In this document: positions 2,445 through 8,337 of the stretch, piece by piece
Layout: each line of letters opens with the position of its first letter
Numbering within the stretch: the first letter of the stretch is position 1
From: Pseudobythopirellula maris
GTDB lineage: Bacteria; Planctomycetota; Planctomycetia; Pirellulales; Lacipirellulaceae
Reading direction: 5' to 3'
DNA: 64,000 nt
Assembly: GCF_007859945.1 (NCBI RefSeq)
Contig: NZ_SJPQ01000004.1
Span: 62,001-126,000 of the forward strand
The notes under the pieces: generated by a model
What the model was told of the DNA's origin: nothing
What the model saw: only the letters and a program-made list of their open reading frames with translations
Database searches by the model: none
Made by a program: the position numbers and the translations under genes

Positions 2445-2909
2445 TTAAGCCCGGTCTGCGGCGCGTCGCGCGGCGAGGTTCAGGTTGGCGGCTGTTTCGT
2501 CCATGACCTTGGTTTCTTCCTGTTGCTCCGCCACGCGGTGGCGTTCGCGGAGCCGCTCGTCGAGTTGCTCCAACACACGCACGTCGCGCTCGGCGGCCAC
2601 CAGGGCGAGCCGACGCTGCTCGGTCTCTTGGCGGATCGTTTCGGCCTGCTCGGCGAGGGAGCGTTGCTGGGACCGCAGCGTGAGCTCGTAACGCTGAGCC
2701 TCGCGGACGGCGCCGATGTCGAGACTCTTCTCGCCGAGCGTGCGGGTGTGCCCGGCCCGCAGATCGGCGATCTCGGCCTCGAGCCGCTCGCTCTGAGCCT
2801 CGAGCAGATCGGCGGCGTGCTGCGCGTCGGCCAGCCGGAGACGTTGCTCGTCTCGGTGGGCGGCGCGGAGGCGCTCGACGGTCTGCAATCGGAAGCGGTA
2901 CGGCGTCAT
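2445..2909 (-). CDS. fliJ: Flagellar export protein FliJ
   Basis: This 154-residue protein is almost entirely alpha-helical and charged, beginning MTPYRFRLQTVERLRAAHRDE, the typical FliJ opening (xYRFxLQxVLxLR). FliJ is the coiled-coil stalk of the flagellar type III export ATPase. It threads into the FliI hexamer and couples it to FlhA. Its ATG overlaps the fliI stop codon by four bases (ATGA at 2906-2909), which indicates translational coupling. Length is normal for the family. Confidence 0.88.
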   Translation of the reverse strand: MTPYRFRLQTVERLRAAHRDEQRLRLADAQHAADLLEAQSERLEAEIADLRAGHTRTLGEKSLDIGAVREAQRYELTLRSQQRSLAEQAETIRQETEQRRLALVAAERDVRVLEQLDERLRERHRVAEQQEETKVMDETAANLNLAARRAADRA

Positions 2910-4336
2910 TTATTGGGTTGGGGTTGAGCCGCTCGCGGGGCGGGAGCGGGTTTCGGTTTCGCCGCTCCGGGCGCGGAGGCGGACGGCGCGGCAGCGGCGG
3001 CGTTTGCCGCCGCGCCGGTGGGGCGGTTGAGGATTGCGGCGGCCTTTTGGGCCAAGGCGAGCAGCCCCGCTTGGGTGGTCTTGGGCGTGGTCTTCGACGT
3101 GGCGTCTTGGGCCAGGAAGGCCTCGATCTGGTCACGCAACTCGATCGCCGCGTCGACCGCCGGGTTGGTCCCGCGACGGTAGGCGCCGATCGTGATCAGG
3201 TCTTCGTTCTCCTCGTAAGCGGCGATCAATCTCCGCACGGTCTGAGCCGCCTGGAGGTGCTGCTTGCTAACGAGTTGCGGCATCAGCCGGCTGAGGCTTT
3301 CCGAGATGTCGATCGCCGGGAACACGCCGCGCGACGCGATCTTGCGCGACAACCAAACGTGTCCGTCGAGCAAGCCCCGCATCGTGTCGGCGATCGGTTC
3401 GTTAGGATCGTCACCCTCGACCAGCACGGAGTAGAACGCGGTGATGATCCCCTGCTTGGTGCGGCCGGTCCGTTCGACCAGGCGGGGCAGCAGGGCGAAA
3501 GTCGACGGCGGGTAGCCGCGCGTTGTGGGGGGCTCGCCCGCCGCCAGGCCGACCTCGCGGCTCGCCAGCGCGGTCCGTGTGATCGAGTCGAGCAACAGAA
3601 GCACGCTCTTGCCCCGGTCGCGAAAGTGCTCGGCGACCGCCGTGGCTGTCGAGGCGGCTTGCAGCCGCACGAGCGCCGGTTCGTCGCTCGTGGCGACCAC
3701 CACGACGCTCCGCGCGAGCCCCTCGGGGCCCAGGTCGCGTTCGACGAATTCGTTGACTTCGCGGCCGCGCTCGCCGACCAAGCCGATGACGATCACGTCG
3801 GCAGCACTGCGGCGGGCCATCATGCCGAGCAGCGTGCTCTTGCCGACTCCCGAGCCGGCGAACACGCCGAGCCGCTGCCCTTCGCCGCATGCGAGCATCG
3901 AGTCGATCGCCCGCACGCCGGTCGAAAGCGATTGGGTGATCCGGGGCCGATCCACCGGCGAGGGCGCCTGGCGGTGCAGCGGCGTGCGGGCCTGCAAAAC
4001 GGGAGCGGGCAGGCCGTCGATCGTGTCGCCGTGGGCGTTCAGCACCCGGCCCAAAAGACCCTCGCCGACACGCAGCGTGCGACGCGTGCGGGTGAGGGTG
4101 ACGCGGCAGCCGCGCCGCACGCCGGCCACGTCGCTCAGCGGGCTGATCAAGGTCTTGTCGTCGCGAAAGCCGATCACCTCGGCCCCGATCGGTCCCCCCT
4201 CGCTCCGATCGACGCGCACCAGCGACCCGACCGGCGCAGGCAGGTCGGCCACGGCGATCGTGGCGCCGGTGGTCTCGACCACGCTGCCGACGAGCCTCAG
4301 CGGCTGAGCGGATTGGAGGGTATCGAATGCGTCCAT
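2906..4336 (-). CDS. fliI: Flagellum-specific ATPase FliI
   Basis: This 476-residue cytoplasmic ATPase of the F1-beta-like type energises flagellar protein export with FliH and FliJ. The Walker A motif GSGVGKST is at residues 161-168. The hydrophobic Walker B strand VLLLLDSITR is near 245, and the conserved PSTFALLPRLVERTGR and SRKIASRGVFPAIDI blocks follow. The last 50 residues are a Pro/Ala-rich tail (after KAAAILNRPTG) that goes beyond the usual 440-residue length. It starts 37 bp after fliH ends and overlaps fliJ by 4 bp. Confidence 0.97.
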   Translation of the reverse strand: MDAFDTLQSAQPLRLVGSVVETTGATIAVADLPAPVGSLVRVDRSEGGPIGAEVIGFRDDKTLISPLSDVAGVRRGCRVTLTRTRRTLRVGEGLLGRVLNAHGDTIDGLPAPVLQARTPLHRQAPSPVDRPRITQSLSTGVRAIDSMLACGEGQRLGVFAGSGVGKSTLLGMMARRSAADVIVIGLVGERGREVNEFVERDLGPEGLARSVVVVATSDEPALVRLQAASTATAVAEHFRDRGKSVLLLLDSITRTALASREVGLAAGEPPTTRGYPPSTFALLPRLVERTGRTKQGIITAFYSVLVEGDDPNEPIADTMRGLLDGHVWLSRKIASRGVFPAIDISESLSRLMPQLVSKQHLQAAQTVRRLIAAYEENEDLITIGAYRRGTNPAVDAAIELRDQIEAFLAQDATSKTTPKTTQAGLLALAQKAAAILNRPTGAAANAAAAAPSASAPGAAKPKPAPAPRAAQPQPNK

Positions 4337-4373: not shown

Positions 4374-5042
4374 TCAGGTCATTTCTTCGAGCAAACGGGC
4401 GAGCTGCGACTCGAGCTGCGCGTCGATCGAACCGTGTCGTGTGTCGACGCGGCAGCCGCCGGGCGTGATGGCCGGGTCGGCCACCAACTCGGCGGGGGCG
4501 ACGGTCGAGATCGATCGCGCCACGTTCTCCACCTCGTCGCGGAGGTGCTCGTGGTCCTCGGGGTTGAGCCGCACCGTCACGCTCGACGAGCCCGAGGCGA
4601 GCTCCAGCGCTTCACGGACCCAGCCGACCGTGATCTCCGGTCGCTTCCCGAGTTCGCGACGCACCAGGCGTTCGGCGATCTTGATCGCCAGCTCGATCGC
4701 CTCGCCCTCCCAACGCGTGAGCCACTCGCCACGCGCTCGGGTGAGCTCTTCGACGGCTTGCTCCAGGGCGGGCTTGAGCGTGAGCATTTGGCTGGCGAGC
4801 TTGTCGTCGAGCATCTTGCTCAGCGCCGCCTTGGCCGCCTCTCGGCCTTCTTTCTCGGCCTTAGTGCGAATGGCGCCCGCCTCGGAATTGGCCTGTTGCA
4901 CGATGCGCGCCGCCTCGCGGCGGATCGACTCGACGTACTCCTCGCCGTAGCGCTCGACGCTGCGCAGGTCGTAGGCCACGGGCCGCACCGTCTCGCCGGT
5001 GGACTGCTCGTGGACGCTGTCGCGTTTGATGATGGTGGCCAA
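4374..5042 (-). CDS. fliH: Flagellar assembly protein FliH
   Basis: This 222-residue protein has a helical, charged N-terminal half containing EEYVESIRREAARIVQQANSEAG. The C-terminal half carries the FliH/V-ATPase E-subunit-like pattern EAIELAIKIAERLVRREL, followed by PGGCRVDTRHGSIDAQLESQLARL. FliH is the peripheral stalk and negative regulator of FliI and docks the ATPase at the C-ring. It lies between fliG (52 bp upstream) and fliI, as in most flagellar clusters. Confidence 0.9.
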   Translation of the reverse strand: MATIIKRDSVHEQSTGETVRPVAYDLRSVERYGEEYVESIRREAARIVQQANSEAGAIRTKAEKEGREAAKAALSKMLDDKLASQMLTLKPALEQAVEELTRARGEWLTRWEGEAIELAIKIAERLVRRELGKRPEITVGWVREALELASGSSSVTVRLNPEDHEHLRDEVENVARSISTVAPAELVADPAITPGGCRVDTRHGSIDAQLESQLARLLEEMT

Positions 5043-5094: not shown

Positions 5095-6225
5095 TCAGGC
5101 CGCCCGAGCGACCGGAACGAACAGCCGCGCCGCGGTGGCGGCCACTGCCCGTTGGGCCGCCTCGATGTCGCTCAGCCGCGTGGGGCCGAGGTTGTGGATC
5201 CGCTTGCGGAGCTGGCGCGCGACGCGTCGCGGCAGTTGGGCCTCGAGTGTCTGGAGCATCCGCTCGCTGGCGCCGGCCAGTGCGAGCAGCAGGACGTTTG
5301 GGTCGGACTTGGCCATGACGGTCGCCAACCGGCCGGCGTCGAGTTGCTCCACCTCGTCGAAGGTCATCCGCGGCGCAATGTGTTCGACGGGCGGCGTGGG
5401 CGTAGGCTCTTCCACTGCCGCCATGGCGGGGGGCGCCGCTGCTTCGGTAGGATGGTCGCCGGTCGCTGGATGGTCTGCCGATCGGAAGTCGGTTGACGGA
5501 GAAACAGCCGGCTGAGGGGCTAAGGGGAGGGGCATTGCAGACGGGGCGCCGCCGGCGGTGAGCAGGTGCTCCGCCAGACTCGGATCGTGCGTGAGCAGGC
5601 TGCGGAGGATCGTCTCGCGTCGATCGGCGGGGGCCGCGGTGACGATCGAGCGGATCGTCGTCATGCGGTTCGCTCGGCGGTTCCGCTCGAGGCGTCGCAC
5701 GGCGATCCACTCGCTCAGGCCGCTGGCGATCACACGCAGGCTGTCGTCGCTGGCCTCGCCCAAGTGGGCCAAGGCGCCGAGGGTGGCCGATTCTTTATCG
5801 GCGCCCAGCTCGCTGAGCACCCCCGCCGCGATCGCCGGGGGCAAGTACGAGAGCACAAGAGCCACCGTCCGCGGGCTCTCGCCCGCGAGGTAGTCGGCCA
5901 GTTCCTTCGGGTCGGCGTCGGACAAATCGCCGAAGTGCCCCTCGATCGCCGGGGGAGCGGCGACCGTGGGAACGGCGGGCGCATCGCCAATCATCAACTC
6001 GACGGCGCCGGCGGGAGCAGCGGGTTCCGGGCGGCCGCGCAAGGCTTCGGCCACGGCGAGCTGTTCGTGCGGGTCGACCTCACCCAGCTCGCGCACGGCG
6101 CTGCGGATCGCTCGCGCCTCGGCGGGGGAGAGCCGTGCGAACATCGCCTCGGCCGACGCGTCGTCGAGGCTCCGCAGCAACACGGCCGCCTTGCGGATCG
6201 AGTTTTGGTTGAGCGAGTCGTGCAC
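5095..6225 (-). CDS. fliG: Flagellar motor switch protein FliG with Pro-rich hinge insertion
   Basis: FliG is the C-ring rotor protein that binds FliF and interacts with the stator. I take the GTG at 6225 (VHDSLNQNSIRKAAVLLRSL), giving 376 residues. A TTG at 6267 would add 14 residues, and neither has a clear ribosome-binding site. The N-domain shows KAAVLLRSLDD. The middle ARM domain shows SPRTVALVLSYLPPAIAAGVLSEL. The C-domain runs from RMTFDEVEQLD through the torque-helix block LGPTRLSDIEAAQ. Unusually, about 63 residues rich in Pro, Ala and Thr (223-285) separate the middle domain from the RMTF motif, which corresponds to MFxF in typical FliG. The C-terminus is slightly short. Confidence 0.88.
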   Translation of the reverse strand: MHDSLNQNSIRKAAVLLRSLDDASAEAMFARLSPAEARAIRSAVRELGEVDPHEQLAVAEALRGRPEPAAPAGAVELMIGDAPAVPTVAAPPAIEGHFGDLSDADPKELADYLAGESPRTVALVLSYLPPAIAAGVLSELGADKESATLGALAHLGEASDDSLRVIASGLSEWIAVRRLERNRRANRMTTIRSIVTAAPADRRETILRSLLTHDPSLAEHLLTAGGAPSAMPLPLAPQPAVSPSTDFRSADHPATGDHPTEAAAPPAMAAVEEPTPTPPVEHIAPRMTFDEVEQLDAGRLATVMAKSDPNVLLLALAGASERMLQTLEAQLPRRVARQLRKRIHNLGPTRLSDIEAAQRAVAATAARLFVPVARAA

Positions 6226-6281
6226 TTCGGTTCTTCGGTCACAGGTGGCAGGGGGACGGCTTCCCAAGGCGGGAGAGAGCG

Positions 6282-7934
6282 TCAGCTAGCGTTGCCGATC
6301 CAGTTGCGGAGGATGGCGGCGGCGGCGTCGGGGTCGCTGCGGACCATGTCGGCCAAGTCGTCTTTGAGGGTCTCCGGCTTGCGGAGCTTGAGCTTGGGGC
6401 GCCCCTGGTCGTCTTCCTCCTCTTCGTCGCCGGCGCCGCCGGGCGTTTCGAGTTGCAGCTCGGGCATGCTGGCCAGCGGGCCATTGCTATCGCCCGGGCC
6501 GCCGTTGATGACCGAGCGCATCATCATCAGCCCCACCAGGGCGACGATTCCCATGGCGACCGACGACCAGTTGCCGCCCGCCCACGCCAGCGCGTTCGAC
6601 ACGGCCGAAGGCTTGGGCGGCGGCTCGCGCTCCAGGCGGTCGTAGAACACCACGCTCAGTTGCTTGTACTTGTCTTCGCCCAGCGAGAGCTTGGCCAAGA
6701 GCGGCTGGACCGTGTCTTCGACCTCTTGCTTGATCTCCTGCTCGACAATCTGCAGCTCGTTGGGGTCGACCTGCTCGGGCTTCTGACCCTCGGTCTTGAG
6801 CTTGCGGTCCATGTAGATGTCGACCACGTAGTCGGTCGGCACGGCGATGCTGGCCCAGGTCTCTTGCAACGCGAGGTCGTAGCGCTCGGTCACCTCTTCC
6901 GAAGCGCCCACGACGTTCTCGATCGCGTCGACCGTGTTGGAGGTCTTCGACTGGTTCACACGCGAGGCGACCTCGTCGCCGCCGCGGTTGGGGCCTTGCG
7001 CGAAGACGCCGGGGCGGCCGCCGTCGGTGTTGGTTGATTGCTCGCTGGTCTCTTGGGTGTTGGTCTCGCGGAGCGTGGCCGGCTGTTGGTCAGGTTTGAC
7101 CTGCGTGACGCGGCTCGACTTGGTGTCGTCCAGCACGGCCTTCACGTTCACCCGCACGCCAGGGATGTAGTACAGTTGGTCCATGATCTGGTTGCGCATG
7201 TGGCTCTCAACCTTGATCTTGGTCGCGTAGAGCGGGTGCTCGAAGTCCTCGGGCGCGATGGAGCCGCCGGCGTAGTCGGTGTCGTCGCCGAGGTTGCTCA
7301 CCGTCACTTGGTCGGGAGTCATGTCGACGTTCCAGCCGGCCACGAGCTTCTGCAAGTTCCTCGCACGCCGGGGGGTCATGTCCTCGCCGAAGTTGGGCAC
7401 CACGGTGACCGTGGCCGACGCCTTGCGCACGCCGCGCAGGCCCCGCTCGCTCGACTGGTCGTAGAGCACGTGGGCCTGGTCGACCCATGGCATCAGGGTG
7501 ATGATCTCCGAGAGCTGCCGCTCGCGGGCGGCCTGGATGCGTTGCTTCTTGACCTCGGACGAGTCGAGCACGCTGCCGCCGTCCAGGGCGTCGGACATCA
7601 GGCGGTGCACGTCGGTCGGCATGGCGCCGGCGTCGGCGATCGCCGCCAGGTAAGCCGCCTTCTGCCCGCGTTGCACGCGGATGCGGTTGCCGTCGATCTC
7701 GAAGTTCGAGAGGCCGGCCTGCGACATGGCGGCCGACATGTCGTTGAGCTGGCTCGCGGCGAGCGCCTCGCCGCCGAACAGGTACTCGTCTGGCCCCGAG
7801 GTCGATTGCTGGAACAGGAACGCCAGGCTCACCACAACGACGGCGAGGAGCAGCCCGGCGGTGAGCCGGGCGCCCGTGGTCATCGAGGCGAACAGCTCGC
7901 GGAGCTGCTCGATAAACTGGTTAGCGAAGTCCAT
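6282..7934 (-). CDS. fliF: Flagellar MS-ring protein FliF
   Basis: This 550-residue protein forms the MS ring in the inner membrane, the base of the flagellum and housing of the export gate. An N-terminal membrane helix spans about residues 23-43 (LTAGLLLAVVVVSLAFLF). The periplasmic ring-building motifs follow, including the block SEIITLMPWVDQAHVLYD and the YscJ/FliF hallmark region ASATVTV. The second membrane helix is at about 455-477 (WSSVAMGIVALVGLMMMRSV). The C-terminal FliG-binding tail ends in PDAAAAILRNWIGN. The gene lies between fliE and fliG on the minus strand. Confidence 0.97.
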   Translation of the reverse strand: MDFANQFIEQLRELFASMTTGARLTAGLLLAVVVVSLAFLFQQSTSGPDEYLFGGEALAASQLNDMSAAMSQAGLSNFEIDGNRIRVQRGQKAAYLAAIADAGAMPTDVHRLMSDALDGGSVLDSSEVKKQRIQAARERQLSEIITLMPWVDQAHVLYDQSSERGLRGVRKASATVTVVPNFGEDMTPRRARNLQKLVAGWNVDMTPDQVTVSNLGDDTDYAGGSIAPEDFEHPLYATKIKVESHMRNQIMDQLYYIPGVRVNVKAVLDDTKSSRVTQVKPDQQPATLRETNTQETSEQSTNTDGGRPGVFAQGPNRGGDEVASRVNQSKTSNTVDAIENVVGASEEVTERYDLALQETWASIAVPTDYVVDIYMDRKLKTEGQKPEQVDPNELQIVEQEIKQEVEDTVQPLLAKLSLGEDKYKQLSVVFYDRLEREPPPKPSAVSNALAWAGGNWSSVAMGIVALVGLMMMRSVINGGPGDSNGPLASMPELQLETPGGAGDEEEEDDQGRPKLKLRKPETLKDDLADMVRSDPDAAAAILRNWIGNAS

Positions 7935-8016: not shown

Positions 8017-8337
8017 TTAGATCCGCACCTCTTGGATCTCGCGGTAGACGTCCATCACCTTGTTGCGCATCTGCATCGTGAGCCGGAAGGCCAGGTCGGC
8101 CTTCTGCACGGCGGTGAGCACCTCGGCCGGGTTCACGTCTTCTCCGGTGAACATCGCCTCGACCGCCTTGTCGGCGTCGACCTGCATCGTGTTGACGTTC
8201 TGGATCGAGTCGATGAGCAGGTTCTTGAACCCGCCGGCGTCTTCTTGGGACTGGGCCTGGTTGTTCGATAGCGCGCCGAGACGCGAGGCGGCGTCGAATT
8301 GGGCGCCGGGGGTCGAGATCGATCCGATCGGGTTCAT
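8017..8337 (-). CDS. fliE: Flagellar hook-basal body protein FliE
   Basis: This is a 106-residue FliE, the export-gate/rod junction protein joining the MS ring to the proximal rod. The second half carries the family signature: DSIQNVNTMQVDADKAVEAM, then EVLTAVQKADLAFRLTMQMRNKVMDVYREIQEVRI at the very C-terminus. Length and position (between flgC and fliF) are typical. The 152 bp upstream (8338-8489), between flgC and fliE, has no gene. Confidence 0.95.
   Translation of the reverse strand: MNPIGSISTPGAQFDAASRLGALSNNQAQSQEDAGGFKNLLIDSIQNVNTMQVDADKAVEAMFTGEDVNPAEVLTAVQKADLAFRLTMQMRNKVMDVYREIQEVRI

Follow-up and report, generated by a model that had tools for sequence, protein, structure and literature searches.

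FliG is regarded as a single multi-copy ring protein, which joins the MS ring of the flagellar motor to the torque interface. The MFxF and Gly-Gly motifs are described as its two switch hinges, which govern the direction of rotation (PMC11853002). In E. coli and Salmonella charged residues of FliG are reported to matter for stator assembly and torque, those of primary importance in the E. coli protein being R281, D288 and D289 and those of secondary importance K264 and R297 (PMC6079164). Two FliG proteins of unlike roles are described in a review for Borrelia burgdorferi, in which FliG2 is essential for flagellar synthesis, and the loss of FliG1 leaves flagella and affects torque (PMC7225975). 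FliF-FliG fusions are described as natural in Chlamydiaceae and as engineered in Salmonella (PMC4768692), and the C-ring of Campylobacter as an expanded set of components with extra FliN- and FliM-type parts, a similarly diversified core (PMC6946799). A FliG paralogue is of a known kind; the order-wide pair presented here, with an operon copy stripped of all torque and switch features, did not appear among the papers listed in searches of open-access literature, none of which dealt with a further FliG of planctomycetes.

The DNA analysed is a stretch of 64,000 nucleotides, referred to below as the window. An open reading frame on its minus strand (5095-6267) encodes a divergent FliG paralogue, named FliG2 throughout, the start codon of which is uncertain, either TTG at 6267 or GTG at 6225, the latter being preferred by us. 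Pfam FliG_N, FliG_M and FliG_C were recognized with 39.5, 62.6 and 68.7 bits, respectively, each above its cut-off, the FliG_N match being a partial one (profile positions 4-55 of 104). The surrounding flagellar operon, on the same strand, comprises fliE (8017-8337; Pfam FliE), fliF (6282-7934; YscJ_FliF), fliH (4374-5042; FliH), fliI (2906-4336; T3SS_ATPase_C and ATP-synt_ab) and fliJ (2445-2909; FliJ). The FliF protein is very divergent (23.7 bits against an NCBIfam fliF cut-off of 129.75) and has a conserved C-terminal tail. A gene for 224 amino acids follows fliJ (1746-2420) and occupies the same slot in most related operons; no Pfam family exceeded its cut-off for it, and we presume that it is perhaps MotE-like.

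FliG2 resembles canonical FliG (TIGR00207; PDB 3hjl, 8umd and 8wiw) in its three domains, its FliG folds and its slot between fliF and fliH. Unlike canonical FliG it lacks MFxF, Gly-Gly and the torque charges, carries ESPR in place of EHPQ, shows a FliG_N match of half length and two disordered linkers, and scores 77.9 bits against TIGR00207, below the cut-off of 226.7.

A search of the whole host genome revealed two FliG_C loci, one of 55 bits in the window and one of 145 bits on another contig (C2). The latter encodes FliG1, a protein of 336 amino acids in which EHPQ, Gly-Gly and MFVF are all present and the torque helix bears the usual charges; it reaches 309.1 bits in the TIGR00207 comparison, above the cut-off, and its N domain is retained (106 bits with Pfam FliG_N). 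Searches of the genome gave a single FliF and a single FliM, FliM lying with FliG1 on contig C2, apart from the flagellar operon. A second flagellar system was considered and rejected on these single counts, FliF being so divergent that another copy could escape detection. Besides the FliN of the operon there is a second FliN-like protein of 295 amino acids, alone on another contig (G000:C2:669496; L096:3855-4742, plus strand), with FliMN_C (SpoA) at its C-terminus only.

The insertion in FliG2 lies between HDPSLAEHLL, which ends at residue 221 of the window protein (P0001), and RMTFDEVEQLD, which starts at residue 285. The 63 residues between them (222-284; window 5371-5559, minus strand) contain 15 Pro and 14 Ala and form a predicted disordered tether at the MFxF hinge. 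In a phmmer comparison with T. maritima FliG (PDB 1lkv) the match stops at chain residue 128 and restarts at 129, directly before MFVF, and the match of a profile of 38 FliG2 sequences is interrupted there as well (from position 234 to 293 of the profile, and from residue 130 to 134 of the chain). These breaks and the open frame rule out an error of boundary or frame, so that the original prediction of a Pro/Ala-rich insertion of about 63 residues at this hinge was right both in substance and in its limits; the domain that ends at DPSLAEHLL is, however, ARM_C (FliG_CN) and not the middle ARM domain named there. The shortness of the typical hinge, also part of that prediction, was borne out as well: the hinge segment of the window protein measures 72 residues against 11 in E. 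coli, and the length is 11 in all 51 FliG1 and in all 15 FliG of other planctomycetes compared, which excludes the insertion as a general planctomycete trait.

Within FliG2 the hinge length is 26-113 in 39 rows of one family (f1) and 47-107 in the 13 rows of a second (f2); a fortieth f1 row (L043), retained among the 70 FliG2, is a contig-end fragment whose value of 8 arose as an artefact of the alignment. The 17 rows from nine other families have hinges of 11-35 residues, nine of them the canonical 11. By this alignment, which had been proposed as a check on conservation, the insertion is lineage-specific, the long tether being found in two families. MFxF and K264 are gone also from FliG2 with a hinge of canonical length, so the insertion is secondary, added on top of the loss of motifs.

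No conserved motif was found in the insertion in the FliG2 alignment, and the segment could not be aligned between genera. In seven close pairs of FliG2 the identity of the linker was 27-69% and that of the domains 58-94%. The dN/dS ratio was 0.13-0.51 for the linker (six usable pairs of the seven) and 0.07-0.17 for the domains (five of the seven with usable dS, which was often near saturation). By these ratios the domains of FliG2 are under purifying selection and the linker is fast-changing. An interaction site in the insertion had been suggested; a conserved one is unlikely, given the predicted disorder of the segment, its failure to align between genera and its low identity within pairs.

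A structure prediction had also been proposed as a check; the AlphaFold2 model of FliG2, built from 38 rows (mean pLDDT 82.2), shows three confident FliG domains and a disordered insertion. The N domain (residues 1-63; 6034-6222; pLDDT about 94), the M domain with ARM_C (residues 91-221; 5560-5952; about 92-97) and the C1-6 domain (residues 285-370; 5113-5370; about 96), all on the minus strand, were modelled with confidence, and low values were obtained for residues 64-90 and about 224-282. The former stretch constitutes a second linker, between N and M (5953-6033, minus strand; pLDDT 42-56 over residues 61-90), which the original prediction did not mention. A single helix (159-196), the long fused helix preceding ARM_C, occupies the expected position of Gly-Gly. 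Each domain gave a match to the FliG fold: the N domain to FliG_N of the FliFc:FliGn complex (5tdy_B; Z 9.0, rmsd 3.0, 65 residues aligned), the M domain to FliG of the FliG-FliM complex (4fq0_C; Z 13.8) and C1-6 to FliG bound to MotAB (8ucs; Z 10.5, rmsd 2.7, 85 residues aligned); the model also matched 1qc7_B with Z 11.5. A control model of FliG1, from 16 rows only, had a mean pLDDT of 71.5. Its MFxF region fell within helix-containing blocks with values of 82 and 74 and showed no long disordered stretch; values of 44-48 in the N-M region and 46-56 in the Gly-Gly region of this control indicate that low values there are not special to FliG2.

The residues described as important for switching and torque were counted, in E. 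coli numbering, in 51 FliG1, 15 FliG of other planctomycetes and 70 FliG2. MFxF is present in 51/51, 15/15 and 0/70 of these, respectively, Gly-Gly in 50/51, 15/15 and at most 1/70, and K264 in 51/51, 15/15 and 0/70. An acidic residue stands at D288 in 51/51, 15/15 and 7/70, and at D289 in 51/51, 14/15 and 1/70. R281 is Arg in all 51 FliG1, in all 15 of the other planctomycete proteins and in 26 FliG2, Arg or Lys together being found in 32 of the 70 (Lys in 6), and Arg or Lys at R297 is kept in 46 of the 70. The mean net charge of the segment corresponding to E. coli 278-292 is -1.9 in FliG1, -2.0 in the other planctomycete FliG and +2.9 in FliG2; in the window protein the equivalent of the torque helix, RRVARQLRKRIH (5194-5229, minus strand), is basic where FliG1 is acidic. 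Positions 281 and 288 are occupied by 10 or more kinds of residue in FliG2. FliG2 has thus lost both switch hinges and the stator-facing charges. Decay of the FliM-contact motif is only partial, with E in 68, H in 41, P in 59 and Q in 53 of the 70 FliG2 and ESPR in the window protein (5869-5880, minus strand), and for this reason FliG2 may still bind FliM.

In the family of the host 42 of 43 genomes contain a FliG_C match; 34 have two, one has three and seven have one, all among the matches listed, and one of the seven (G002) has in addition a FliG2. The order was sampled with 217 genomes of at least 90% completeness. Among the matches listed, FliG_C was found in 166 of these genomes, in a canonical form in 123, and 119 of the 123 have at least two FliG_C matches; the canonical FliG1 is absent from 43 of the 166, and in 30 genomes the best FliG_C match is a divergent one. 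Two FliG are thus present in the host genome and in most of the sampled FliG-bearing genomes of its order. The closest named FliG1 among the matches listed are those of two Pirellulales MAGs, a Pirellula and a Rhodopirellula, from which we infer that the sampled order is Pirellulales. Several genomes of family f3, among them G187, G354, G525 and G645, have three FliG_C matches each.

The two proteins differ in their genomic surroundings. With the window not counted, fliH lies downstream of FliG2 in 70 of 71 loci, and fliF lies directly upstream of FliG2, or is fused to it, in 61 of the 71, four of the remainder being contig edges and six being without fliF. The six (L148, L149, L151, L152, L153 and L155) come from several genera of family f2 and show the order fliG2-fliH-fliI. 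Within the short flanks available, neither fliF nor fliH was found beside FliG1 in 30 annotated loci of the family (L003, L013-L040, L041 and L080) and in 19 loci of the order (L164-L182). The one exception (L081), counted among the 51 FliG1, adjoins fliH; it may be of foreign origin, and the genome from which it comes is incomplete and has three matches. Among named genomes, for which 36 of the 80 loci listed were annotated, FliG1 stands alone in all four Pirellulales, and FliG occupies the fliF-fliG-fliH slot in all 32 other planctomycetes (fliF in 31 and fliH in 31, the rest being contig ends). A different order of the class contributed six operons, in all of which a canonical FliG lies beside fliF; it lies beside fliH in five, the sixth being a contig end. 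One canonical FliG from another order (L163, family f98) has no fliF or fliH within 10 kb, and an isolated canonical FliG is thus not unique to the host order.

The occurrence of FliG1 was compared with that of FliM in the 166 genomes, among the matches listed. Canonical forms of both were found in 118 genomes and of neither in 38; five have canonical FliG1 without canonical FliM and five the reverse, and the scores of the two correlate with a Spearman coefficient of 0.66. The table, whose thresholds for canonical and non-canonical were chosen after the data were seen and whose genomes are related and not independent, supports, without proving it, the view that FliM has FliG1 rather than FliG2 as its partner. 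A weak FliM match or none accompanies a canonical FliG1 in G612 and G624 and in G631, G635 and G558, which may reflect assembly gaps or an altered FliM. In four genomes of one f2 genus (g285; G503, G517, G578 and G735) FliG_C matches reach only 1e-27 or 1e-28 and FliM gives no match, and their motor may be different again.

Two natural FliF-FliG fusions were found, of 818 amino acids in G501 (L135:2445-4901) and of 632 in G477 (L142:3365-5263). Both comprise the M and a divergent C region without FliG_N, FliG_C of the G477 protein being below its cut-off, and both also lack the FliF tail which is present in the unfused FliF compared. With the fusions described for Chlamydiaceae and Salmonella they share the joining of FliF to FliG M (and C) and the removal of the joint between tail and FliG_N; unlike the Chlamydia protein, described as FliF with FliG M in non-flagellate bacteria, the planctomycete fusions keep M with the divergent C (PMC4768692). 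They place FliG2 at the FliF ring in these lineages and so add further evidence on its location. Since no canonical FliG_C occurs in either genome among the matches listed (best match 3.8e-15 in G501, none in G477), they do not show FliG1 beside FliG2.

A tree was computed from 83 rows, in which FliG2 forms one clade (support 100/100) on a long stem of 1.1, and FliG1 forms another (100/99), placed beside the six operon FliG of the other order within the class (100/97). AU tests rejected none of three placements, with p values of 0.385 for FliG1 with FliG2, 0.466 with the six added and 0.374 for FliG2 with the six. Gene order would favour FliG2 as the resident copy of the operon.

The reading which we prefer, with a probability of about 60%, is a division of labour in which FliG1 serves torque and switching and FliG2 is an adaptor docked on FliF which does not bear torque. 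FliG1 together with FliM would form the torque-bearing, direction-switching unit. The N domain of FliG2 would dock on the FliF ring, or FliG2 would be fused to FliF, serving assembly as an adaptor or spacer from MS ring to C ring. Its C1-6 domain would be freed from being held rigidly against ARM_C and from facing the stator, and with these duties gone the hinge could have lengthened into a tether. In favour of this reading are the two FliG_C loci with one FliF and one FliM, the position of FliG2 in the fliF-fliG-fliH slot, its loss of hinges and charges on retained FliG folds, the fusions, the purifying selection and the accompaniment of canonical FliM by canonical FliG1. The pattern fits, by analogy, the division described for Borrelia burgdorferi, which belongs to a different phylum and whose likeness to the planctomycete pair lies in the roles given in the review (PMC7225975). 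Against the division of labour it must be said that FliG1 keeps its N domain, so that contact with FliF does not obviously require FliG2; that 43 of the 166 genomes have no canonical FliG1, five of them having canonical FliM; and that there are six FliG2 loci without fliF, a possible binding of FliM and a partial retention of R281 and R297.

Both FliG may be present in one FliF ring and rotor. It is tempting to speculate, although we hold this more tentatively than the division of labour, that the rotor is a composite of FliG1 with its torque helix and of FliG2 on the FliF ring, whose basic C1-6 domains would be carried on disordered tethers. In such a rotor C1-6 of FliG2 might be a passive spacer, or a clutch that binds an acidic face on FliG1, on FliM or on the stator, and the switch complex would do without a rigid FliF-FliG-C1-6 coupling in every subunit.

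It is improbable that the two FliG build different motors on the same FliF, each in its own type of cell or stage of growth. The single FliF and FliM beside two FliG would suit such an arrangement, as would the distance between the fliG genes, which makes separate regulation possible, but the torque residues are missing from FliG2 alone.

Even more doubtful is a motor of exchanged charges, in which FliG2 bears the torque against a charge-reversed stator and FliG1 has some other role. The positive torque segment of FliG2 beside the negative one of FliG1, and the residence of FliG2 rather than FliG1 in the operon, would agree with it. The positions concerned are, however, highly variable in FliG2, unlike a working electrostatic interface, and FliG1 keeps all of them; the quality of FliM is tracked by FliG1 and not by FliG2; and only one clear flagellar MotA was found, the window MotA aligning poorly with that of E. 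coli around R90 and E98.

We give equally little credence to FliG2 as a functionless leftover of a duplication in decay, notwithstanding its fast evolution (the stem of 1.1 and long tips) and the loss of several motifs. The frames are open in about 14 families of the order (three listed rows being excepted or having a stop inside), the domains show low dN/dS and a confident fold, and FliG2 is retained without FliG1 in the 30 genomes whose best match, among the matches listed, is divergent.

Very improbable, finally, is the view that the window protein is the cell's FliG and that its inserted hinge alters switching or assembly in a rotor with a single FliG: the insertion does fall precisely on the MFxF hinge, in a gene of the flagellar operon, but a canonical FliG whose hinge is intact is encoded in the same genome, the torque charges of the window protein are gone, and relatives of FliG2 free of the insertion have lost the same features. 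The original prediction that this rotor protein differs from an ordinary FliG thus holds in that it cannot work alike, and fails in so far as it is not the only FliG of the cell.

To annotate the FliG of the operon as that of the motor is accordingly misleading in these genomes. As far as can be read from the sequences, each end of the job of FliG appears to have a gene of its own across an order. Should the two proteins share a rotor, these bacteria would provide a natural test to tell the parts of FliG required for assembly from those required for torque and switching, and would show how a motor copes with subunits unable to contact the stator.
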